The position numbers were made by a program, and so were the translations under genes. Below are positions 30,203 to 62,307 of a DNA stretch of 64,000 nt, piece after piece. The notes under the pieces are model-generated. The model made no database searches. It was not told where the DNA came from and saw nothing but the letters and a program-made list of their open reading frames with translations. This stretch comes from Corallococcus macrosporus DSM 14697 (GTDB taxonomy: Bacteria; Myxococcota; Myxococcia; Myxococcales; Myxococcaceae). Numbering within the stretch: position 1 is the first letter of the stretch; every line of letters starts with the position of its first letter. The stretch spans positions 5,186,501-5,250,500 of the forward strand of contig NZ_CP022203.1 of assembly GCF_002305895.1 (NCBI RefSeq), read 5' to 3'.

Positions 30203-31654
30203 ATGGACTCCCGTCCCGCCGAACCCACACCGCGCGACGCGCTCCGTTTGCCCTCGCCCGCCACGTTGCGGATGCTGGGCGCGTGCGTGGGCATCGCGCT
30301 GGCGGTGGTGACGGCGGTGGCGGGGGGCGCCCCGGGCTTCCTGGAGCGCTCGCTCTACGACCTGGCCGTGAGCCGGCTGCTGCCTCCCGTGCCGCCCAGC
30401 GCGGACCTGGTGCTGGTGGAGGTGGATGACCGCGCCCTGGCGACCCTGGGCGAGCGCTGGCCCCTGTCACGCGCCACCTGGGCCCGCGCCTTCCAGGCGC
30501 TCGCCGCCCAACGTCCCGCCGCCGTCGCGGTGGACGTCGTCTTCGACCAGCCCGGGCCGCGTGACGCGCTGGAGCTGGGCGAGGACCTCCTGGAAGCGCT
30601 GCGACGCTCGGGCTTGATGGAGCAGCCCGCCGGCGCGGAGCTGGCGGCGAACCTGGAGACCCGGCTCCGCGCGCGAGACGGCGACGCACGGCTGGCCGAG
30701 GCGATTTCAGAAGGCCACGGCGTCGTGCTCGGGGCCGCGGCCCTCACGGAGGACGTCCCGGTGATGCCGCCCCTGGCGGATGGCGCGTTGGGCACGCCCC
30801 TGCCCCTGCCCGCCCAGGCGCTGCGGCTCCAGGCCCGCGAGGTGGCGGGGAGCATCGCCCCGCTGCGCATGGCGGCCCGGGGCAGCGGCACCCTCAACAT
30901 GCTGGTGGATGGGGACGGCGTCATCCGGCGCTATCCCTACGCCGTGGGCGTGAGCGGACAGGCCTGGCCCTCGCTGGCGCTGGCCACCGCGCTGCACCTG
31001 ATGCCCGAGCGCGCCGAACCGCTGCGCGCGCTGGCGGCCCTGGACCAGGGCGCGCCGCTGATGCGCCTCCCCAGGCCCAACTGGCTGCCTCGGCTGAGCC
31101 TGGCGGACCTGCTGCACGCGGACCCGCGCTCGGTGGGCCTGGACCTGGCGCTGCGCGGCAAGACGGTGTTCGTGGGCGTCACCGCCACGGGGCTGCACGG
31201 ACAGAGCACGCTGCCCGGGCAGGTGGCCGTGCCCGGCGTGGAGATTCACGCCTTCGCCCTGGACAACCTGCGCTCGGGCCGGCTGATGCGCTCCTCGGGC
31301 GTCGTGGCGCTGGTGGGCGTCCTGGAGACGGCGGCGGTGCTCCTGGCCTTCACCTGGCGTTGCCGCCGCGCGCGCACCTCCAGCGCGGTCCTCCAGTGGG
31401 GATTGGGACTGGCCGTCCTCCACACGGCGCTGGTGGCGTGGCTGGCGTCGGACCCGGGTTGGGTCATCCCGCTGGTCCCCGCGTGGCTGGGCCTGACACT
31501 GATATCGCTGGTGGACGCCGCGTCCCGCGCCCAGGAGATGGGCCGGCAGCGAGGCGCGCTCCGCCGGCTCTTCATCCGCTACCCCCAAGCCTCCATTCCA
31601 GACTCAACTCAACGCACATCCAAACAACCATCAACGCCCGACAAAACCACCTAG
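30203..31654 (+). CDS. CHASE2 sensor protein, apparently truncated
   Basis: The 483-residue protein has one N-terminal helix (about 22-42). An extracytoplasmic CHASE2 domain spans about 45-355 (DLVLVEVDDRALATLGERWPL, FVGVTATGLHGQ). Three membrane helices follow (about 370-455). The cytoplasmic end reads GALRRLFIRYPQAS and then becomes unrelated polar sequence (TQRTSKQPSTPDKTT) as base composition falls sharply near 31585. In CHASE2 adenylate cyclases the LRRLFxRY linker leads straight into the catalytic domain, so this gene seems to have lost its output domain where the low-GC island begins. It may be non-functional or act as a decoy. Confidence 0.8.
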   Translation: MDSRPAEPTPRDALRLPSPATLRMLGACVGIALAVVTAVAGGAPGFLERSLYDLAVSRLLPPVPPSADLVLVEVDDRALATLGERWPLSRATWARAFQALAAQRPAAVAVDVVFDQPGPRDALELGEDLLEALRRSGLMEQPAGAELAANLETRLRARDGDARLAEAISEGHGVVLGAAALTEDVPVMPPLADGALGTPLPLPAQALRLQAREVAGSIAPLRMAARGSGTLNMLVDGDGVIRRYPYAVGVSGQAWPSLALATALHLMPERAEPLRALAALDQGAPLMRLPRPNWLPRLSLADLLHADPRSVGLDLALRGKTVFVGVTATGLHGQSTLPGQVAVPGVEIHAFALDNLRSGRLMRSSGVVALVGVLETAAVLLAFTWRCRRARTSSAVLQWGLGLAVLHTALVAWLASDPGWVIPLVPAWLGLTLISLVDAASRAQEMGRQRGALRRLFIRYPQASIPDSTQRTSKQPSTPDKTT

Positions 31655-34060
31655 CGGGCACCTCCAATCAAAAAACAACAACCATCAAAACCACAATGTT
31701 CAACACAAATCAAACATCACACGTAAACTTCCGAAACATTGCGGCCGAACGCAGCCGCTCCGTAATCGCCTGGACGGGCTCGGGCCTAAGCGCCCCCGCC
31801 AAGATTCCTACTTGGCTTGGCCTCAGAGATGCTCTTGTGGCGGCGGCTCACGAAAAAACCCCTAGCGATAAGGAGGCACAACAACGCCAAAAACACATTA
31901 GCGAGACCAAACAGGCCGCCGAACACAAGAACCTCTGGGTCGCCTTTCAAATCCTGAAGAGAATCCTCGGAAAGACAACATATAGAGACACGATCAGACA
32001 AAAGCTAATGGTAGCAGAAAAGGCCGCCATACCAGAGGCATACAAACTCATCTGGAAACTGCGCCCCGCCGGAATACTCAACCTAAACCTGGACGGTTTT
32101 GCATCGCGCGCATATGGCATGGAACACCCAGGAAGAACGCTCAATCAATTTTCGGGGAACCAGTCAGCCAGCCACACACACCTACTCAAGTCCCCCGAGC
32201 CCTTTGTAGCAAATCTCCATGGAACAATCATCGACGAATCCAGTTGGGTCTTCACGCAGGACGAGATTAGACATCTTCTAAGAAACGAGGGCTATAGACA
32301 CTTCATCTCGAGCTGCCTCTCATCGAAAACAATCATATTTCTCGGAATGAGCGCTGACGACACAGCCATCGCCGAACACTTGCGTTCTCTATCTCAAGTC
32401 GGAGTAGACTTTGGTTCTCACTATTGGCTAACTCATCGTACAGATAGCTCAACAGATCGCATAGCAGAAAAAATTGGGATCCGCCTCATTCGCTATGAAA
32501 ACAAGAGCGGGACGCACGAAGAGGTCAGCCAGTTCTTCCAGGACATACTGAAGTTTTCACCGCAAGAAAACACCGCCCCCCCTGTCGCAATTGCAACTCC
32601 TGAGCTCAGCGCTCTGCCAGAACCAAGCGCACTAGCAAACCTACCAGCAGACGAAATCCGTGTTCGTCTCAACGCCCATATTTCGGCGCTATTAGTCGAG
32701 CCCACCAAAACCTACGATGACGTCGAACAACTGCTCGCAAAATACGACGAGGCCGTCTATCGCGCCTGGTACATTTCGACAACGCCACCGAAAAACAAAC
32801 TCATCGGCTACGAACTAAAGGAACAGATTGGGAAAGGGGCCTTTGGAAAAGTATTCAAAGCCATCACTCCGTCAGGAGAGGAAGTCGCAATCAAGGTCCT
32901 CCATGAAGAGATCAGGAAAACACCGGACATGCTGAATGGATTTCGGCGTGGCGTCCAATCAATGCGCATACTTTCGGATCACAATGTGGCTGGAATGGTG
33001 CCCTATCGACAGGCCTCCGAAGTTCCAACCATGGCCGTCATGGACTATGTCGAAGGGCCGGACTTGGCAGAAGCAGTCAAGTCTGGGAGAGTCGACAACT
33101 GGGACCTTGTTCTCAGGATCGCATCCGATATCGCGCGCATTATAGTAACGGCCCACGCACTTCCCGAGCGTGTCTTGCACCGCGACTTGCGCCCTACCAA
33201 TATCATGCTCAAGGGCTTCCACACCCTGCCAGACTCATGGGAAGTTGTCGTCCTTGACTTCGACCTGTCATGGCACCGCAATGCCCTAGACGTATCAATA
33301 GCCAAACCCGCATCAGCCAACGGCTACCTCGCACCAGAGCAAGTTCGACGAGGAAAGGGCGAATCAACTCGCAGCGCAGCAGTTGACTCCTTTGGCATCG
33401 GAATGACAATATTCTTCATTTGCGGCGGAGAAGACCCTGTCTTCGCCGAAAACAACCACAAGAACTGGTCAGCAAGAATACAGGCAGCGTGCAACAAAAT
33501 CCCCGAAAGCCAATGGAAGTCCCTCCCACACAGGGTCGCACGTCTCATCGAATCCTCAACCAAAGACGCACAATCGCAGCGATGGGACTTACCCCAAATC
33601 GAAGGAGAACTAATCCGCCTTAGGGAGGCCGCTCAAGACCCAACATCGGTCCACTCCGCAGAACTCCTCGCGGAAGAAATTGCTGCACAAAACAAGAGCA
33701 GCATGACCTACAAGTGGAACCCAGACACACTTTCCGCATCAATACTTATCCCTGGAGGCGCCGAAACAACAATCACTGGCAACGAAAGCTTGCGGCGAGT
33801 TGAAGTCACTATCTCCTGGATCAGCAGCGGACAAGAAGATCGGAAGCGTTTAAGCAAGTGGCTCGGCGACGCCCTCACAAAGGCTGAATCCATCTTTTTC
33901 AAGGCTGGATGGACCACTTCGAACAGAAACAAAGATCAAATGAGCGTAACGCTCAGGGCCTCTGCGGACATCAATCTCATTCGAAAAAATTTCAATCAAC
34001 TATCCGCCGCCATTTGGGCAGCAGCAAAAGCGCTCACTTTCTGAACTCGAATCACGCCAC
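31585..34060 (+). mobile_element. Low-GC horizontally acquired island
   Basis: Between about 31585 and 34060 the DNA changes from roughly 70% GC with G/C third positions to visibly AT-richer sequence with A/T-ending codons (aaa, aca, ata, cta), then switches back. The only gene inside is the SIR2-kinase fusion. No transposase, integrase or terminal repeat was seen. The left edge falls within the CHASE2 gene, consistent with insertion plus loss of its 3' end. The edges are estimated from composition only. Confidence 0.7.
31696..34044 (+). CDS. SIR2-like domain fused to a Ser/Thr protein kinase; candidate defence protein
   Basis: From ATG 31696 the protein has 782 residues and no membrane segment. 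Residues of about 15-300 form a SIR2-like domain: AWTGSGLSAP (25-34), NLNLD with Asn131 and Asp133, LHG with His175, and IFLGMSADDTAIAEHL. Residues of about 370-620 are a kinase: loop GKGAFGKV (379-386), Lys400 in VAIK, HRDLRPTN (495-502), DFD (521-523) in place of DFG, and YLAPEQV. About 140 C-terminal residues match nothing I know. SIR2-type NADases are effectors in Thoeris, DSR and SIR2-Argonaute systems, so NAD depletion gated by the kinase is a reasonable inference. ATG 31696 lacks a clear ribosome binding site, so the start is uncertain. Confidence 0.85.
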   Translation: MFNTNQTSHVNFRNIAAERSRSVIAWTGSGLSAPAKIPTWLGLRDALVAAAHEKTPSDKEAQQRQKHISETKQAAEHKNLWVAFQILKRILGKTTYRDTIRQKLMVAEKAAIPEAYKLIWKLRPAGILNLNLDGFASRAYGMEHPGRTLNQFSGNQSASHTHLLKSPEPFVANLHGTIIDESSWVFTQDEIRHLLRNEGYRHFISSCLSSKTIIFLGMSADDTAIAEHLRSLSQVGVDFGSHYWLTHRTDSSTDRIAEKIGIRLIRYENKSGTHEEVSQFFQDILKFSPQENTAPPVAIATPELSALPEPSALANLPADEIRVRLNAHISALLVEPTKTYDDVEQLLAKYDEAVYRAWYISTTPPKNKLIGYELKEQIGKGAFGKVFKAITPSGEEVAIKVLHEEIRKTPDMLNGFRRGVQSMRILSDHNVAGMVPYRQASEVPTMAVMDYVEGPDLAEAVKSGRVDNWDLVLRIASDIARIIVTAHALPERVLHRDLRPTNIMLKGFHTLPDSWEVVVLDFDLSWHRNALDVSIAKPASANGYLAPEQVRRGKGESTRSAAVDSFGIGMTIFFICGGEDPVFAENNHKNWSARIQAACNKIPESQWKSLPHRVARLIESSTKDAQSQRWDLPQIEGELIRLREAAQDPTSVHSAELLAEEIAAQNKSSMTYKWNPDTLSASILIPGGAETTITGNESLRRVEVTISWISSGQEDRKRLSKWLGDALTKAESIFFKAGWTTSNRNKDQMSVTLRASADINLIRKNFNQLSAAIWAAAKALTF

Positions 34061-34107
34061 TGAGCCTTGAGCCCAACGGTAGCCGTGGCAGCATCCGCTC
34101 CTCCTCC

Positions 34108-35892
34108 ATGCGCCGCTACGCCCTCATCGCCGAGCCCGACCCACAACGCGCCGCTGGCCTCCTGTCCCTCGTCACGGAGGAAGGGCTCGAAGGCGTCGTC
34201 ACCAAGGATGGCGTGGAGGCCACGGAGGTGGTGCGCCAGCGCGGCGCGCCCTTGCTGCTCGTCACGGACCTGGCGCTGCCCCGGCTGGACGGCTTCGCGC
34301 TGCTGACCTGGCTGCGGGAGCAGGAGGACGCCGCCGGCACGCAGGTGGTGGTGGTGACGGCCTTCGACGAGCTGCGGGTCCGGGCCTGGCAGCTCAAGGA
34401 GCCCCTGGGCATCCACGCGTTGCTCAGCCGCCGGGCCTCGTCGGAGCTGATGCGAGACATGCTGCGGCGCGTCCTCTCCGGACAGTTGGCGCCGCAGCCC
34501 GCGGCCCCGGAGGCCACCACGGAGCAGGAGCGGCAGCGGGTGGCGAGCATCGCCGCCATGCGCCTGGTCGACGACGGGCCGCCCGAAGCCGAGCTCCAGC
34601 AGCTCGTCACGGAGGTGGCCCAGGCCTTCGGCGTGCCCGTGGCCCTGCTGACGTTGGTGCTGGGCGAGCGCCAGTGGTTCAAGGCCCACGTCGGCCTGCC
34701 ATCCTCCCTGGCGAAGGACCGGGGCACGCCGCGCGACTGGGCGTTCTGTCATCACGTGGTGCAGGGGCGCGAACCGCTCGTCGTGCCGGACGCCCGGCGG
34801 CATCCCTTCTTCCGCGACAACCCGCTGGTGCGCGACGGCATCGTGGGCAGCTACGCGGGCGCGCCGCTGCTGACGTCCACGGGCGAGGTGCTGGGCTCGC
34901 TGTGCGTCATCGACACGCGCCCGCTCGTCCTGGGCGCCGAGGACCTGGCCGCGCTGCGAGAGCTCGCGAGCCGCGTCGCGGAGGACCTGGAGCAGCGGGC
35001 CCGGGCGAAACAGGCCACGGTGAAGGCCCAGGTCGAGCCCGCGCTCACCGAGGCGTCGGCCCTGGCGCTCCTGCGCGAGGCCGTGCAGGCGCTGGACGTC
35101 GCCGCCCTGCTGGTGGCACCGGGGCGCAAGCCCTTCGCGAGCAACGCCGCGCTCACGGACCTGCTGGGGCTGCCCGCGGACGCCTTCCCCGCCATGACGT
35201 TCGACGCCTTCTGCCAGCACGTCGCGGGGCTCACCGCGGACCCGGCGGGCACGTTGCGGCAGCTCGACCTGGCCTCCGAGTCCTCCCGGGGCCTTCGGAT
35301 GTCGCTCGTCCTGGAGCGCCCCCAGGCGCGGCGGCTCCGCTGGGTTGCGCGGCCCTTCCCCGTTCCTGGCGGCGTGGCGCAGATGCTGACGCTCTCCGAC
35401 TTGGGGAACACCCGTCCGGCCCGCGAGGAGCGTGAGCGGCAGCACCGGGTGGACGGCCTGACGGGGCTGGATTCGCGGCGCGCGGGCGAGGAGCGGGTGC
35501 TGCGCGAGATTGGCCGGTGCCGCCGGGACGGTGTGCCGTTCAGCGTGTTGCTCGCGGACCTGGTGGGGCTGGGCCGCATCAACGCGACGCGAGGCTTCGA
35601 CGCGGGTGACGCCGCGCTGCGAGTCGGCGCGCGCGTCGCGGAGGCGCTGGCGGTCCCCAGGGGCTTCGCGGTGCGCTGGGAAGGCGGCGCCTTCCTGCTG
35701 GGCCTCCCCGGCGTGGACGCGGAGCAGGCGGAGTCCATGCGCCGCAAGCTGCACGACACCCCGGGCGCGCCCGAGGTCGTGTCCGCCACCGTCACCGTCG
35801 AGGGCGAGGAAGACCCGCAGGGCACCCTGGCCCGCGCCCAGGCGGCGCTCGCCCGCGCCCAAACGGAGCAGCGCTCACACCGGATGGAGTAA
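34108..35892 (+). CDS. Receiver/GAF/degenerate GGDEF regulator
   Basis: The 594-residue protein has a receiver-like domain (1-118, Asp54 in LLVTDLALPRLDG, but no clear acidic pair at the start). A GAF domain spans about 155-305 (TPRDWAFCHHVVQ, SYAGAPLLTSTGEVLGSLCVID) and a PAS-like segment about 320-435. The C-terminal GGDEF-fold domain (about 445-590) begins DGLTGLDSRRAGEERV. Its signature is EGGAF (525-529) instead of GGDEF, so diguanylate cyclase activity is unlikely. It may bind a nucleotide or a partner. It lies directly after the low-GC island, in host-like GC-rich DNA. Confidence 0.83.
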   Translation: MRRYALIAEPDPQRAAGLLSLVTEEGLEGVVTKDGVEATEVVRQRGAPLLLVTDLALPRLDGFALLTWLREQEDAAGTQVVVVTAFDELRVRAWQLKEPLGIHALLSRRASSELMRDMLRRVLSGQLAPQPAAPEATTEQERQRVASIAAMRLVDDGPPEAELQQLVTEVAQAFGVPVALLTLVLGERQWFKAHVGLPSSLAKDRGTPRDWAFCHHVVQGREPLVVPDARRHPFFRDNPLVRDGIVGSYAGAPLLTSTGEVLGSLCVIDTRPLVLGAEDLAALRELASRVAEDLEQRARAKQATVKAQVEPALTEASALALLREAVQALDVAALLVAPGRKPFASNAALTDLLGLPADAFPAMTFDAFCQHVAGLTADPAGTLRQLDLASESSRGLRMSLVLERPQARRLRWVARPFPVPGGVAQMLTLSDLGNTRPAREERERQHRVDGLTGLDSRRAGEERVLREIGRCRRDGVPFSVLLADLVGLGRINATRGFDAGDAALRVGARVAEALAVPRGFAVRWEGGAFLLGLPGVDAEQAESMRRKLHDTPGAPEVVSATVTVEGEEDPQGTLARAQAALARAQTEQRSHRME

Positions 35893-57272: not shown

Positions 57273-58381
57273 CGCTCGCATCGCCCGCAACACGCCCCCA
57301 GGAGTTGGACGTCTCCCGAATCGACCCGGCCGCGCTGCGCGTCCTCCAGCGGCTCCAGGAGTACGGGCATCAGGCCTTCCTCGTCGGAGGCTGTGTCCGG
57401 GATTTACTCATGGGGCGCACGCCCAAGGACTTCGACCTGGTGACGAGCGCGTCCTCGCGGCAGGTCCGCGCCCTCTTCCCCCAGAGCGTGGGCTTCGGCG
57501 GGCAGCGGTTCCTCGTGGTCCAGGTGCGCACGGAGGGCGGGAAGAGCCTCGAGGTGGCGAGCTTCAAGGCGCGGCGCTCGGCGGACGTGAGCGGGCCGGA
57601 TGCCCAGGTCATCCCGGATGACGTGCTCGCGGAGCTGCCGCAGGAGCTGGGAACGCTCGAAGAGGACGCCCGGACGCGGGACTTCACCGTCAACGCGCTC
57701 TACTGCAACGGCGCCAGTGGGAAGGTGGTGGACCCCGTGGGCCAGGGCTTGAGCGACCTTCAAGCGAACCTGCTTCGAATCGTCGGCGAGCCCGAGGCGT
57801 ACCTCCGCGACGACCCCGGCGGCATGTTGCGCGGCGCCCGCTTCGCCACGCGAATGGGGATGGCGTTCGAACGGCGCACCGCCGAGGCGATGAAGCAGAT
57901 GCGCGGCGAGCTGGCGCGCTGCTCACGCAAGCGCGTGCTGAGCGAGGTCCTGCGCGGACTCGGCACGGGCACTGGCGCGCCCTTCTTCCGGCTGCTGTCG
58001 TCACAGGGTTGGCTGCCGTTGCTCGTCCCGCCCGTGGCGCGGCACCTGGAAGGCGGGCCGGAGGTGGAGCGCCGCTTCTTCGCCCACCTGGAGGCCGTGG
58101 ACCGCTCGCTCCAGGAGAATCCCCGCATCGATGAACTGACGCTCGCCTGTGCCCTGCTCCTCCCCGTCGCCGCGCCGCCCGCTGGCGGTCCCCCGGCCCC
58201 CGAGGCGATGGGCGCGGTGCTGGAGGAGCTGGTGCAAGGTGCGCCCGAGCTCCAGGCGCTGCCCCGGCATGGGCAGCACCTCATCGCCACCCTGCACGGC
58301 GTGCTGAAGGCGCCCGAGGCTGTGCCCGCGGACAACCCACTGCTCCCGGGGGCCCGGCGACTGGCGGCCCTGCTGGGCTGA
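57269..58381 (+). CDS. CCA-adding/poly(A) polymerase family nucleotidyltransferase
   Basis: The 370-residue protein has the class II polymerase signature LVGGCVRDLLMGRTPKDFDL with two catalytic Asp. It also has EEDARTRDFTVNALYCN and YLRDDPGGMLRGARF, which replaces the usual DPxRxLR segment. It lacks an HD domain. Its size suits a poly(A) polymerase or a CCA enzyme, and the choice cannot be made by eye. It is the last gene of the exporter operon, an unusual location for RNA 3'-end maintenance. A different template or role is possible. Confidence 0.82.
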   Translation: MTLASPATRPQELDVSRIDPAALRVLQRLQEYGHQAFLVGGCVRDLLMGRTPKDFDLVTSASSRQVRALFPQSVGFGGQRFLVVQVRTEGGKSLEVASFKARRSADVSGPDAQVIPDDVLAELPQELGTLEEDARTRDFTVNALYCNGASGKVVDPVGQGLSDLQANLLRIVGEPEAYLRDDPGGMLRGARFATRMGMAFERRTAEAMKQMRGELARCSRKRVLSEVLRGLGTGTGAPFFRLLSSQGWLPLLVPPVARHLEGGPEVERRFFAHLEAVDRSLQENPRIDELTLACALLLPVAAPPAGGPPAPEAMGAVLEELVQGAPELQALPRHGQHLIATLHGVLKAPEAVPADNPLLPGARRLAALLG

Positions 58382-58517
58382 ACGCTTGGCATAGGCAACC
58401 AGAGCGTGCCTCATATTCAGCATGGCAGGATAAATCGACATGCATGAGATGGCTGCAGCATGAGCCGAACGGCTTTCGCTGCATCCAGACCAGCCAAATA
58501 GTCCACCATTAGTGTGC

Positions 58518-59609
58518 TCACCTTCCAGCTTCTGGCTTTTCAGCTTCTTTCTTCGGTTGAGGCTTCTGGCTTTGGCTGGTCAGCGCATCGAGTTCGATTC
58601 GGCCAGCCACGCTGAAGGTAGGCAGGAAGCGGCCATTGGTCAGCCCCTGGACGCGCCCGAATATGATGGGGAAATCCATTCCCACTGTGACCGTATTTAC
58701 TTGCACCCAAAAACTACCCTCCACGCCCAAATACCCACGCTGTCTACTCCCTAGAGATTCGCGCAAAAACACACCATGCCCATAGACATCCCCCATAAGA
58801 ATCCGCGCAGTGGGCCCGACGTGCGCGAGAATCCGCACGGAATTACTTCCAACCCTCTTCAAGTAGCCAAGACTCGCCCCAAGACTCAAAGACATAGCAA
58901 CAGCCGATCGCGACTGAACATCCTCCCCGTCCGTCGGATCAATGTCAGCCACCCATGTAGCTGTTCCAACTGCCCCATATCCATACCAGCCAAGAGCAAG
59001 AGTACGACGAGGAACGAGCCACTGATCGTATTTCACATGGGCCGACCATGCTGACGTCCCTGGCGTCAAGACAAATCGCGCAAACTCATCCTGTTTGGTC
59101 AGCCTGTTTTCCGTGGACCCTCTACTGACGCCAAGCTGAATCTGATCACATGACGCATTCGTCCGAAGGACCGCCAAACTGAAGGCAGCGTTAGCATCCC
59201 GCGTATCAAGCAACTGCGCGTATCCATTACCAAGAATACTCCAAAGCCCGACATCATCCACACCATCCTTGGATGGATCTCTGCATTTCTGACGAAATGC
59301 TCCTCCTGGAGTTTCACTGCTCCCAGCGTCCGGGCTCGTCCCAGCATCCAAGCCCGTCCCTGCCGCCCCACCATCTCGCCTTGGCTCGCCAGCGGCGGCT
59401 CCCCCATCACGTTCCGTCGCTACGCCACCATCGCGTTCGGCAGCATCTGTCCCTGCATCCCATTCAGGAGTCTCACGCGGTGGAGGCGAAAGCTCCGCCT
59501 CTTTCGGTGGAGCGAGTTGCTCAGCAGTTGGCGGTGGCGGAGGAACTCCTTGTGCCCAGGTAATCGCCCCAACCAACGTCACAATGAACAGCAGGACACG
59601 CCTTGACAT
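58518..59609 (-). CDS. Exported protein with Asp/Gly linker and beta-rich C-terminus
   Basis: From the ATG complementary to 59607-59609, preceded by GGGAGGGG, the protein has 363 residues. It has a signal peptide (LLFIVTLVGAITWA). A long acidic linker with repeated DGG and DAG follows (about 20-105). The C-terminal domain (about 115-345) has alternating patterns such as LALGWYGYGAVGTATW and GYLGVEGSFWVQVNTVTVGMDF that suggest a beta-barrel. No family was recognised. The DNA is less GC-rich than the neighbours and lies next to mobile elements, so recent acquisition is possible. Confidence 0.68.
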   Translation of the reverse strand: MSRRVLLFIVTLVGAITWAQGVPPPPPTAEQLAPPKEAELSPPPRETPEWDAGTDAAERDGGVATERDGGAAAGEPRRDGGAAGTGLDAGTSPDAGSSETPGGAFRQKCRDPSKDGVDDVGLWSILGNGYAQLLDTRDANAAFSLAVLRTNASCDQIQLGVSRGSTENRLTKQDEFARFVLTPGTSAWSAHVKYDQWLVPRRTLALGWYGYGAVGTATWVADIDPTDGEDVQSRSAVAMSLSLGASLGYLKRVGSNSVRILAHVGPTARILMGDVYGHGVFLRESLGSRQRGYLGVEGSFWVQVNTVTVGMDFPIIFGRVQGLTNGRFLPTFSVAGRIELDALTSQSQKPQPKKEAEKPEAGR

Positions 59610-59900
59610 GCACCCCTCCCGAACCAGCGCCCCTTGAGTCCCCATTGCCAATAGCTACAACTCAGACTGTGCCACTTCTGCGCCAAGTGAGATTCCTTTG
59701 CCGTGAAGGCCTACTCTTGGTCTAGCAGCCTCAAGTGCATGCAAGTGTATTGAAGTTGCCCAGCATCCTGCGGGATCCGCTCGAATGTGGATCTGGCCCT
59801 GAGCAGCGAGTGAGCTGACAAGCAAGGGGACCACGGGAGGCCTGATGGTCGGCAGCATGCGAGGCCACTGGTGGGTTGTGCGACTGGAGGACATCCAACG
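59610..59900. other. Intergenic region before the transposon remnants
   Basis: This gap of 291 bases has mixed composition. It probably contains the promoter of the minus-strand exported protein gene and the left end of the decayed ISKra4-like element. I found no convincing terminal inverted repeat that pairs with sequence after 63708. Confidence 0.4.
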
Positions 59901-60011
59901 ATGCCAAAGGTGACCATCGACGTGCCGGAAGGGTTCGAGGACAGCGTCAAGGCGATGGAGGAGACGCTGAAGCGTGCGCACCGAGGGGTGGAGGGGGCAA
60001 GCGGACGGTAA
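59901..60011 (+). pseudogene. ISKra4-like transposase, 5' fragment
   Basis: ATG 59901 starts MPKVTIDVPEGFEDSVKAM and runs 36 codons to a stop created at the IS66 junction. Removing the IS66 element and one copy of its target duplication joins ...EGASGR directly to DLAAFDAARQEV of the 3' fragment in frame. This proves that the two are parts of one interrupted gene. Confidence 0.82.
60000..60007 (+). repeat. IS66 target-site duplication, left copy
   Basis: AGCGGACG here is identical to 62385-62392. Eight bases is the duplication length generated by IS66-family elements. Confidence 0.88.
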
Positions 60012-60076
60012 GCGTCCGGCCAACGACGTGATGAGGGGCGTTGAGTGACGCGCCGCCGCCGTGGACCCTGGCGTGC

Positions 60077-60391
60077 ATGTCGAAGCCGGTGGAGAAGCAG
60101 GAGTGGTTCCGTGTCGCCGAGGCTTTCGAGGCGAGCGGGCTGACGCAGGTGGAGTTCGCGCGGCAGCGGGGCGTGCGGCTGAGCACGCTGCAGTCGTGGG
60201 TGTACCGGCGGCGCCGGCACCTGGCGGCAAAGGCCGAGCCGGTCCGCCTGCTGCCAGTCCAGGTGACGCCCCCCGTGGAGCCGAGCACCACCTTCGTGGA
60301 GCTTGTCGCGGAGGGTGGGGCTCGCCTGCGCTTTGCCGTGGGCACTGACGTGGGGTACGTGGCCCGGCTCCTCGCCGCGCTGGGGCGGTGA
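60077..60391 (+). CDS. tnpA: IS66 TnpA
   Basis: From ATG 60077 the protein has 104 residues and starts MSKPVEKQEWFRVAEAFEAS. The helix-turn-helix GLTQVEFARQRGVRLSTLQSW is typical of the IS66 accessory protein TnpA, which is needed for transposition and probably binds the ends. An upstream in-frame TTG (60041) would add 12 residues with no family match, so the ATG is preferred. It stops five bases before tnpB. Confidence 0.85.
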   Translation: MSKPVEKQEWFRVAEAFEASGLTQVEFARQRGVRLSTLQSWVYRRRRHLAAKAEPVRLLPVQVTPPVEPSTTFVELVAEGGARLRFAVGTDVGYVARLLAALGR

Positions 60392-60395
60392 GGCG

Positions 60396-60761
60396 GTGTT
60401 CGCCCTTCCAGCCTCGGTGCGCGTGGTGCTGGCCACCGCGCCCGTGGACATGCGCAAGTCCATTGACGGCCTCATGGCGCTGGTACGCAGCGCGTGGGGC
60501 GAGGACGTCTATTCGGGCCACCTCTTCGCCTTCGTCTCGCGCAAGGGAGACCGAATCAAGGTACTGACGTGGAGCCGGGGCGGCTTCGTGCTGCTGTACA
60601 AGCGGCTGGAGACGGGGCGCTTCCGGCTGCCGCCGGTGGACGCGGGCGCGCAGGTGGTGCACCTGGACGCCACGCAGTTGGCCATGCTGCTGGACGGCAT
60701 CGACGTGGCCCAGGTGAGGCGCCAGCCCGCCTGGGTGCCTCCCGGGCGCACGGGCACCTGA
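60396..60761 (+). CDS. tnpB: IS66 TnpB
   Basis: The GTG start at 60396 gives 121 residues with the IS66 TnpB (Orf2) pattern: VRVVLATAPVDMRKSIDGLMALV, GHLFAFVSRKGDRIKVL and WSRGGFVLLYKRLETGRF. It is an accessory protein required with TnpA for transposition, with unknown biochemistry. Reading lies five bases after tnpA, so expression is probably coupled. Its length is typical. Confidence 0.9.
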   Translation: MFALPASVRVVLATAPVDMRKSIDGLMALVRSAWGEDVYSGHLFAFVSRKGDRIKVLTWSRGGFVLLYKRLETGRFRLPPVDAGAQVVHLDATQLAMLLDGIDVAQVRRQPAWVPPGRTGT

Positions 60762-60807
60762 GGCGAGGAGCCCGGGACGCCTCCGCGCCGTGGCGTGTTG
60801 AGGCTAC

Positions 60808-62307
60808 GTGCCGCGCGAGCTTCCTCAAGACCACTTCTGCCCCTGGCGCGAGGAGGCGGAGGAACTCAAGGAGCGCCTGACGTCGCTGGAGGCGAAGATG
60901 GCGACGCTGGAGCGCCACGTCTTCGGCCGCAGGGCGGAGAGGTTGCCCACGGTGGCCGCCGAGCTGCGAGCAGATGCGGACGCCACGGCGGCCCAGGCCG
61001 AAGCCGCGAAGAAGAAGCGCCAGCAGAGGGCCGCCCGGAAGGCGGAGGAGGCCCCGGCGCGGGAGATTCGCCACGCGGTGCCCGCCGAGGAGCGCCACTG
61101 CCCGGCGTGCGGCGGCGAGAACTTGAGGCCGCTGGGCAAGGGGCGCACCTCGGTGCTGTACGAGTACGTGCCCTCGCGTTTCGAGAAGCAGGTGCACGTG
61201 CAGGAAGTGCTGGCGTGCACCTGCGGCCGGGGCGTCGTCACCGCCCCGCCTCCGGCCAAGGTGGTGGACAGAGGCGAGTACGGCCCTGGCTTCCTGGCGC
61301 ACGTGGTGACGTCGAAGTGCGCGGACGCCATGCCGCTGCACCGGCTGGCCCAGCGGGTGGAGCGAAGTGGCGTGCCCATGAGTCGCAGCACCCTGACGGA
61401 CCTCTTCCACCAGGCCGCCTCGGTGCTGCTGCCTCTCTCCCAGCACCTCTTGCAATGCATTGCGTCCGCGGACGTGGTGTGGGCCGACGAGACGCCCTTG
61501 CGCGTGCTGGACGTGAAGAAGACGAAGCTGGGCTACCTCTGGACTTTCCTCACCCAGAATGAGGCGGGCCAGTGGCTCATCGGCTACCGCTTCAGCATGG
61601 GCCGGGCCAGCAAGACGCCGAAGGAAGTCCTGGGCGGCACCAGGGGAGCCCTCGTGGTGGACGCGTACACTGGCTACAACGCGGTGACGCTGCCGCAGGG
61701 CCGCGTCCGCGTCGGCTGCTGGGCCCACGTGCGTCGCCGCTTCTTCGACGCGCTGGCCACCGCGCCCGAGGCTCGCGAGGCGATGGACTTCATCCTTGAG
61801 CTCTACCGGGTGGAGGCCCAGGCGCGTGAGGCGGACATGGTGCGCACGGCCGCGCACCGCGAACTGCGCCAGGTGCACAGCGCCCCTGTCCTCGCCAGGC
61901 TGCATGCCTGGCTCGAAGCCCAGGCCCCGCGCCACCCGCCCAAGAGTCCGCTGGGGCAGGCCATCTCCTACGCGCTGAAGCAGTGGGAAGCCCTCACCCG
62001 CTTCGTGGAGAATGAGCGCCTGCCTCTCGACAACAATCGCTCGGAGGCGGCGCTGAGAAAGGCGGCCCTGGGCCGCAAAAACTTTCTCTTCGTCGGCCAC
62101 GAGGTCGCGGGCGAAAACCTCGCCGGCCTCTACGCGCTGGTGGCCACCTGCGAGGCCAACCAAATCAATCCCGAGGCGTATCTGGCCGACGTGCTGCTGC
62201 GTGTGCAGATGCACCCCAACTCGCGCATCGGTGAGCTGCTACCCCACGAGTGGGTGCGACGACGCGCCGCCGAACTGGTCCCGTCCCCCCTCCAGCCCAG
62301 TTCCTGA
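60808..62307 (+). CDS. tnpC: IS66 TnpC, DDE transposase
   Basis: The 499-residue protein has an N-terminal coiled-coil (EEAEELKERLTSLEAKMATLE), a basic linker and a zinc-binding CPACGGE...CTCGRG region. The DDE catalytic core has Asp in VWADETPLRVLD, Asp in VVDAYTGYNA and Glu in LPLDNNRSEAALRKAAL. All three acidic residues are present, so it looks active. The start is GTG 60808. The stop lies 77 bases before the right inverted repeat ends. Confidence 0.92.
   Translation: MPRELPQDHFCPWREEAEELKERLTSLEAKMATLERHVFGRRAERLPTVAAELRADADATAAQAEAAKKKRQQRAARKAEEAPAREIRHAVPAEERHCPACGGENLRPLGKGRTSVLYEYVPSRFEKQVHVQEVLACTCGRGVVTAPPPAKVVDRGEYGPGFLAHVVTSKCADAMPLHRLAQRVERSGVPMSRSTLTDLFHQAASVLLPLSQHLLQCIASADVVWADETPLRVLDVKKTKLGYLWTFLTQNEAGQWLIGYRFSMGRASKTPKEVLGGTRGALVVDAYTGYNAVTLPQGRVRVGCWAHVRRRFFDALATAPEAREAMDFILELYRVEAQAREADMVRTAAHRELRQVHSAPVLARLHAWLEAQAPRHPPKSPLGQAISYALKQWEALTRFVENERLPLDNNRSEAALRKAALGRKNFLFVGHEVAGENLAGLYALVATCEANQINPEAYLADVLLRVQMHPNSRIGELLPHEWVRRRAAELVPSPLQPSS

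Follow-up and report, generated by a model that had tools for sequence, protein, structure and literature searches.

Within the window, by which we mean the whole 64,000-nt stretch analyzed here, a single gene encodes a 782-aa protein that joins a SIR2-like domain, a divergent protein-kinase-like domain and a small C-terminal chaperone-like domain. We consider it likely that this protein is a horizontally acquired single-gene abortive-infection effector, in which a SIR2 NADase would be gated by the kinase-like and chaperone-like domains. The occurrence of relatives in a prophage and in other mobile elements is suggestive of an antiviral suicide device made of one gene, rare and apparently undescribed. 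As a sequence-only reading of this DNA had supposed for the SIR2–kinase fusion, no described system with this architecture was found in the open PMC literature, Pfam, PADLOC or NCBIfam, and the SIR2–kinase fusion is missing from the PADLOC library of defense models that we scanned. To our knowledge, there is no precedent for a kinase-gated NADase in bacterial immunity. If the proposal is true, two immune chemistries known separately, protein kinases and NAD depletion, are joined in one chain, and kinase control of an NADase could be tested by point mutants of a single gene.

A lone fusion gene and its insertion site

The open reading frame and its Pfam matches to SIR2_2 and Pkinase, both above curated cutoffs, bear out the earlier description of a SIR2 and kinase protein of this length at this position (Table 1). 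Met1 is common to all relatives in the alignment of full-length members, so that a longer frame from a TTG codon at 31360 does not represent the real start. The protein comprises three domains, a SIR2-like domain (residues ~1–290), a Ser/Thr-kinase-like domain (~366–648) and a C-terminal domain of 132 aa, and because the full-length model has a pTM of 0.54, the packing of these domains against one another in that model is not reliable. The motifs named in the sequence-only reading lie where it had placed them (its AWTGSGLSAP including the GSGLSAP motif): GSGLSAP, Asn131, His175, Lys400 and HRDLRPTN are all invariant or conservatively varied in the four other intact full-length relatives, which at 33–44% identity is conservation far beyond chance as judged from the alignment.

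Table 1. Features of the fusion gene, its insert and its flanks, in window coordinates
Feature	Position	Strand	Basis
Left flank: CHASE2 membrane-protein gene, last ~20 codons changed by insertion	30203..31654	+	Pfam, flank comparison
Low-GC insert, edges approximate	~31595..34062	.	Flank comparison with congeners, composition
CDS, SIR2–kinase–chaperone-like fusion (P0001), 782 aa	31696..34044	+	Intact ORF (ATG 31696 to stop 34044), Pfam, alignment of relatives
SIR2-like domain, residues 1–290	31696..32565	+	Pfam SIR2_2 at residues 127–265 (7.5e-15); profile matches KomC, ThsA, DSR2; model
GSGLSAP nucleotide-binding motif, residues 28–34	31777..31797	+	G28, G30, S32 invariant
Asn131, predicted catalytic	32086..32088	+	Invariant; aligned with an Asn of KomC
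His175, predicted catalytic	32218..32220	+	Invariant; aligned with KomC His146
Linker, residues 291–365, low confidence then helical	32566..32790	+	Predicted model
Protein-kinase-like domain, residues 366–648	32791..33639	+	Pfam Pkinase at residues 372–635 (8.5e-26); VIA Z about 24
Lys400, ATP-binding lysine	32893..32895	+	Invariant
Gly419 at the usual alphaC Glu position (FRRGV for FxREA)	32950..32952	+	Family-invariant; Glu in comparison kinases
Catalytic loop HRDLRPTN, residues 495–502, Arg for usual Lys	33178..33201	+	HRDxRPxN in 5/5 members
DFD in place of DFG, residues 521–523	33256..33264	+	Alignment with relatives and ordinary kinases
C-terminal alpha/beta domain, residues 651–782, secretion-chaperone/YbjN-like fold	33646..34041	+	Domain model, Foldseek, VIA
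Right flank: receiver–GAF–GGDEF gene	34108..35892	+	Pfam, flank comparison

The host is a myxobacterium with a 9.0 Mb single-contig genome, and the fusion gene (GC 0.519, GC3 0.561) departs in composition from its six neighboring genes (GC 0.70–0.76, GC3 0.89–0.94), its low GC3 being even across all domains. A search of 27 congeneric genomes, among them that of the window, found both flanking genes in every one. In 24 of the 27 the matched flank segments lie ~80–200 bp apart with no insert, versus ~2.5 kb in the window's genome, where the insert has taken the place of ~110 bp present in relatives as the CHASE2 3′ end plus intergenic DNA. Composition and flank comparison thus uphold the earlier view of foreign-looking DNA between host-like genes, and the insert holds the fusion gene alone, as that view also had it. 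The SIR2–kinase fusion is absent from all other congeners, two of which (G074 and G066) carry different cargo between the same flanks. The insert of G074 (L074:1728-5195, + strand) is polymorphic toxin–immunity cargo made up of a weak ketoacyl-synthase-like gene, an AHH nuclease, an Imm11 gene and an Imm49-like gene; since its left junction is the same as the window's and its right edge is close, we conclude that different cargo has occupied a single site. The insertion in G066 looks independent, with the CHASE2 end left intact there, and it carries (L075:1786-4596, − strand) a lone 936-aa STAND-type protein with NB-ARC, TPR and cold-shock domains and a weak PADLOC match to PDC-M34B at its N-terminus, a candidate defense gene in its own right. 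"Hotspot", as applied to this site, is a description and not a statistic. No known defense gene was identified adjoining the fusion gene within the window, which also contains no tRNA or Rfam element. Toward the far end of the window (58000-61600), GC dips at 58–60 kb, and the adjoining frames resemble by eye an IS66-type insertion sequence that is possibly broken.

Conserved residues and predicted folds of the three domains

Across the five members, G28, G30, S32, N131, D133 and H175 of the SIR2 part are invariant. A profile built from these five sequences matched KomC best among solved structures (7e-8), then FAM118B, ThsA (1e-5) and DSR2 (3e-4), and the KomC histidine aligned with His175 is the residue mutated in PDB 9xvc. 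The SIR2 region of the model has alpha/beta secondary structure, and the fold call draws on Pfam, the profile and this secondary structure, the PDB and viral fold searches with the full model having been filled by kinases; together they agree with the Rossmann-type SIR2 domain that had been proposed. The bacterial SIR2 relatives KomC, ThsA and DSR2 are defense NADases according to their entry names and the literature (DSR2, PMC11087589), and by homology we infer NADase activity for the 782-aa protein.

The middle domain has the predicted fold of a protein kinase (VIA Z about 24 over 240–260 residues) and keeps the VAIK lysine (Lys400), the HRD aspartate (Asp497), the asparagine (Asn502) and the metal-binding aspartate (Asp521), all invariant, which favors some ATP-dependent function. 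The kinase motifs reported by the sequence-only reading are therefore present, but it had passed over an atypical active site, which is the new point to emerge here from the alignments. At the position of the alphaC Glu in the ordinary kinases compared, which were drawn from the same bacterial family, every member has Gly; all have the Arg of HRDxRP, whereas 13 of 13 ordinary kinases have Lys; and all have DFD, versus DFG in all but one of the ordinary kinases. The alphaC Glu, HRDxKP and DFG features of eukaryotic-like Ser/Thr kinases are thus absent at the sequence level, and because of the departures at these three canonical positions the kinase part may be a conformational switch and not a normal signaling kinase. 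It may represent either an active, if divergent, kinase or a switch gated by ATP; kinase activity is in doubt, and catalysis by this part appears only slightly favored. The family signature FRRGV, HRDxRPxN and LDFDLxWH, combined with an N-terminal SIR2 domain, provides a search handle for other members. Long structural alignments to AMPK (445–497 columns) were disregarded, their rmsd being near 19–20 Å.

The C-terminal ~140 residues had been described as of unknown fold. This stands insofar as profile and Pfam searches gave no sequence family for the domain, but it does not hold for the structure, where ~132 residues are predicted to form an alpha/beta domain with a fold like that of secretion chaperones and YbjN. 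Modeled alone, the domain reached a pLDDT of 88.8 and a pTM of 0.84. The first six Foldseek matches to this model were all ExsC chains (E 1e-4 to 9e-4), and VIA-align placed Spa15 first (Z 8.7, rmsd 3.6 Å over 120 residues, where models without a clear match often score 7–8), with other type III chaperones, YbjN and DR_1245 also in the leading rows. The domain thus appears to resemble the type III secretion/YbjN chaperones most, with a modest margin over chance arrangements. Searched for alone among 195 genomes, it was present only in the two full-length fusions, and so no effector swapping was seen.

Relatives and their mobile carriers

Five intact full-length members were found, the window gene included, with whole-chain identities to the window protein of 33–44%. 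A single-sequence scan of genome contigs had returned nothing, and the relatives were recovered with a two-sequence alignment as query. The family is rare: a whole-protein search found it in 2 of 195 genomes of the phylum, and in a sample of 392 genomes of the planctomycete phylum the bait genome alone was positive. Searches of plasmid and phage records gave no full-length member, the best matches listed covering the kinase part only, and repeat viral scans gave no further members.

The member in Corallococcus sp. CA053C is a lone gene of GC 0.51 in DNA near 0.70, and it occupies a site other than the window's; in a relative whose flanks are 97% identical this site is empty, the flanks lying 101 bp apart. 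Directly downstream of it we observed multi-copy repeat modules with sharp borders (L030:9055-9672), of which there are many copies across the genus, and a group II intron fragment (L030:9483-9624). The planctomycete members come from two uncultured Schlesneria assemblies, one of them with an integrase and a replication-initiator-like gene nearby. The second Schlesneria copy (L033:7986-10342) has a frameshift in the kinase part that may reflect a decaying gene or an assembly error. In the region before the frameshift the two copies show a dN/dS of 0.054 (79 synonymous versus 16 non-synonymous codon differences), indicating that the fusion protein has been under purifying selection. Two further members lie on IMG/VR contigs. 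On L034 the gene adjoins a TrwC relaxase (MobF element), and L035 is a P2-like prophage with gpA, Ogr-like regulator, repressor, GPD and tape measure genes, in which the member (GC 0.43) sits between the repressor and gpD. P2 prophages are a precedent for defense hotspots, and in P2 phages of E. coli the hotspot is gpA–gpQ (PMC9122126); the member on L035 is outside that interval, yet in an accessory position. Carriage on mobile elements and exchange with conflict genes were thus both observed at the loci examined.

Proposed mechanism, alternatives and known systems

With the effector at the N-terminus, the switch in the center and the sensor or dimerizer last, all within one mobile, partnerless gene, the arrangement is most simply read as abortive infection through depletion of NAD. 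The fusion protein would be kept inactive until infection, with the C-terminal chaperone-like domain (through peptide binding or dimerization) and the ATP-binding kinase-like domain serving as sensor and switch; activation, by kinase action or by a conformational or oligomeric change, would then allow the N-terminal SIR2 domain to destroy NAD(+), and the cell would die or stall ahead of phage release. In this scheme we infer the NADase chemistry, the phage trigger, which way the gating runs and that the C-terminal domain acts as a sensor. Indirect support for a role in defense comes from the presence of relatives on a P2-like prophage and other mobile elements, from conflict-gene exchange at the insertion site and from the likeness of the SIR2 part to KomC, ThsA and DSR2. 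We put forward only tentatively, and with some doubt, a more specific version in which the chaperone-like domain would capture a phage polypeptide and thereby, through a divergent kinase lacking the alphaC Glu, turn on the SIR2 NADase.

The strongest rival, which leaves the class of system unchanged, keeps the same defense role and makes the kinase-like part a pseudokinase, so that binding of ATP or another ligand, and not phosphorylation, would gate the NADase. It is a sub-variant of the gated-NADase proposal, our confidences in the two overlap, and we regard it as a serious possibility short of an even chance. All three substitutions are shared throughout the family and set it apart from the ordinary kinases compared, and the top-ranked structural matches include the JAK2 and TYK2 pseudokinase domains, though these are tied within error with active kinases. 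Pseudokinases, however, usually lose one of the core Lys/Asp/Asn/Asp residues, and here all four are invariant. We find it quite improbable that the roles are reversed, with a kinase toxic in the manner of Stk2 or KKP as the effector and the SIR2 domain as a sensor or an ADP-ribosylating or deacylating modifier: the core kinase residues are kept and toxic kinases do defend bacteria in KKP (PMC11341870), but in characterized SIR2 defense proteins it is the SIR2 domain that does the killing, the closest solved SIR2 relatives are NADases, and the kinase site is less canonical than the SIR2 site.

Two other explanations dispense with phage defense. Cargo for bacterial competition, or an addiction gene of a mobile element, would suit the AHH nuclease with Imm11 and Imm49-like genes inserted at the same site in G074, as well as the carriage of other members by a MobF element and by an integrase element; it is nevertheless unlikely, as Pfam recognized no delivery domain in the 782-aa protein, the insert has no partner immunity or antitoxin gene, and one copy is surrounded by phage genes in a prophage. 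A purely regulatory host protein, outside any conflict, could be imagined in myxobacteria, which have very many Ser/Thr kinases, but absence from all other congeners, foreign composition, differing sites and mobile carriers make this very improbable.

Compared with known systems, the fusion protein is predicted to act like the SIR2 single-protein effectors while lacking the defining features of DSR2, ThsA, Lamassu and the lone kinases. DSR2, a precedent for SIR2 defense (PMC11087589), likewise combines in a single protein a SIR2 NADase-type domain at the N-terminus, the conserved Asn and His, and a long C-terminal part that is a possible infection sensor, but at ~1005 aa it has a long C-terminal sensor region where the fusion has a kinase-like and a small alpha/beta domain. 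KomC (Kongming), the closest solved SIR2 by profile, with its catalytic His aligned, is a 264-aa SIR2 protein with partner genes, whereas here SIR2 is fused to the kinase and chaperone-like domains. In SIR2-type Thoeris, ThsA shares the NADase-type domain but has a C-terminal SLOG domain and a ThsB partner, whereas the fusion gene is lone and has no SLOG match in Pfam. The top PADLOC match of the SIR2 part is LmuA, from the SIR2 variant of Lamassu (9.5e-19), a system with an adjacent LmuB/SMC partner, in place of which CHASE2 and receiver–GAF–GGDEF genes flank the fusion. As for the C-terminal domain, the TY-chaperone superfamily (T3SS/YbjN), predicted to occur in ADP-ribose-centered conflict systems (PMC9503650), appears similar in predicted fold, but searches gave no sequence-profile link to it, and we saw no account in PMC9503650 of its fusion to a SIR2–kinase protein.

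Stk2, PD-T4-6 and KKP resemble the fusion in having a Ser/Thr-kinase-like fold encoded by a mobile or prophage gene, but they are kinases without SIR2, and the fusion kinase differs in its Gly at the alphaC Glu position, its HRDxRP and its DFD. The PADLOC model for PD-T4-6 is generic: ordinary myxobacterial kinases, dozens per genome, match it at ~1e-95 and the fusion kinase at 7e-33, so the label is not meaningful here and we rejected membership. The analogy to Stk2 drawn in the sequence-only reading is accordingly weak, given this generic match and the departures at three canonical positions. Among the other SIR2 proteins in the family (L011-L028), no kinase was recognized by eye, and the whole-protein search gave no second full-length match. 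Three of these loci (L011-L013, in G007, G004 and G057) contain frames of ~2100–2200 codons with an N-terminal SIR2-like domain followed by an apparent STAND/NACHT NTPase, and their products are possible Avs-like defense proteins.
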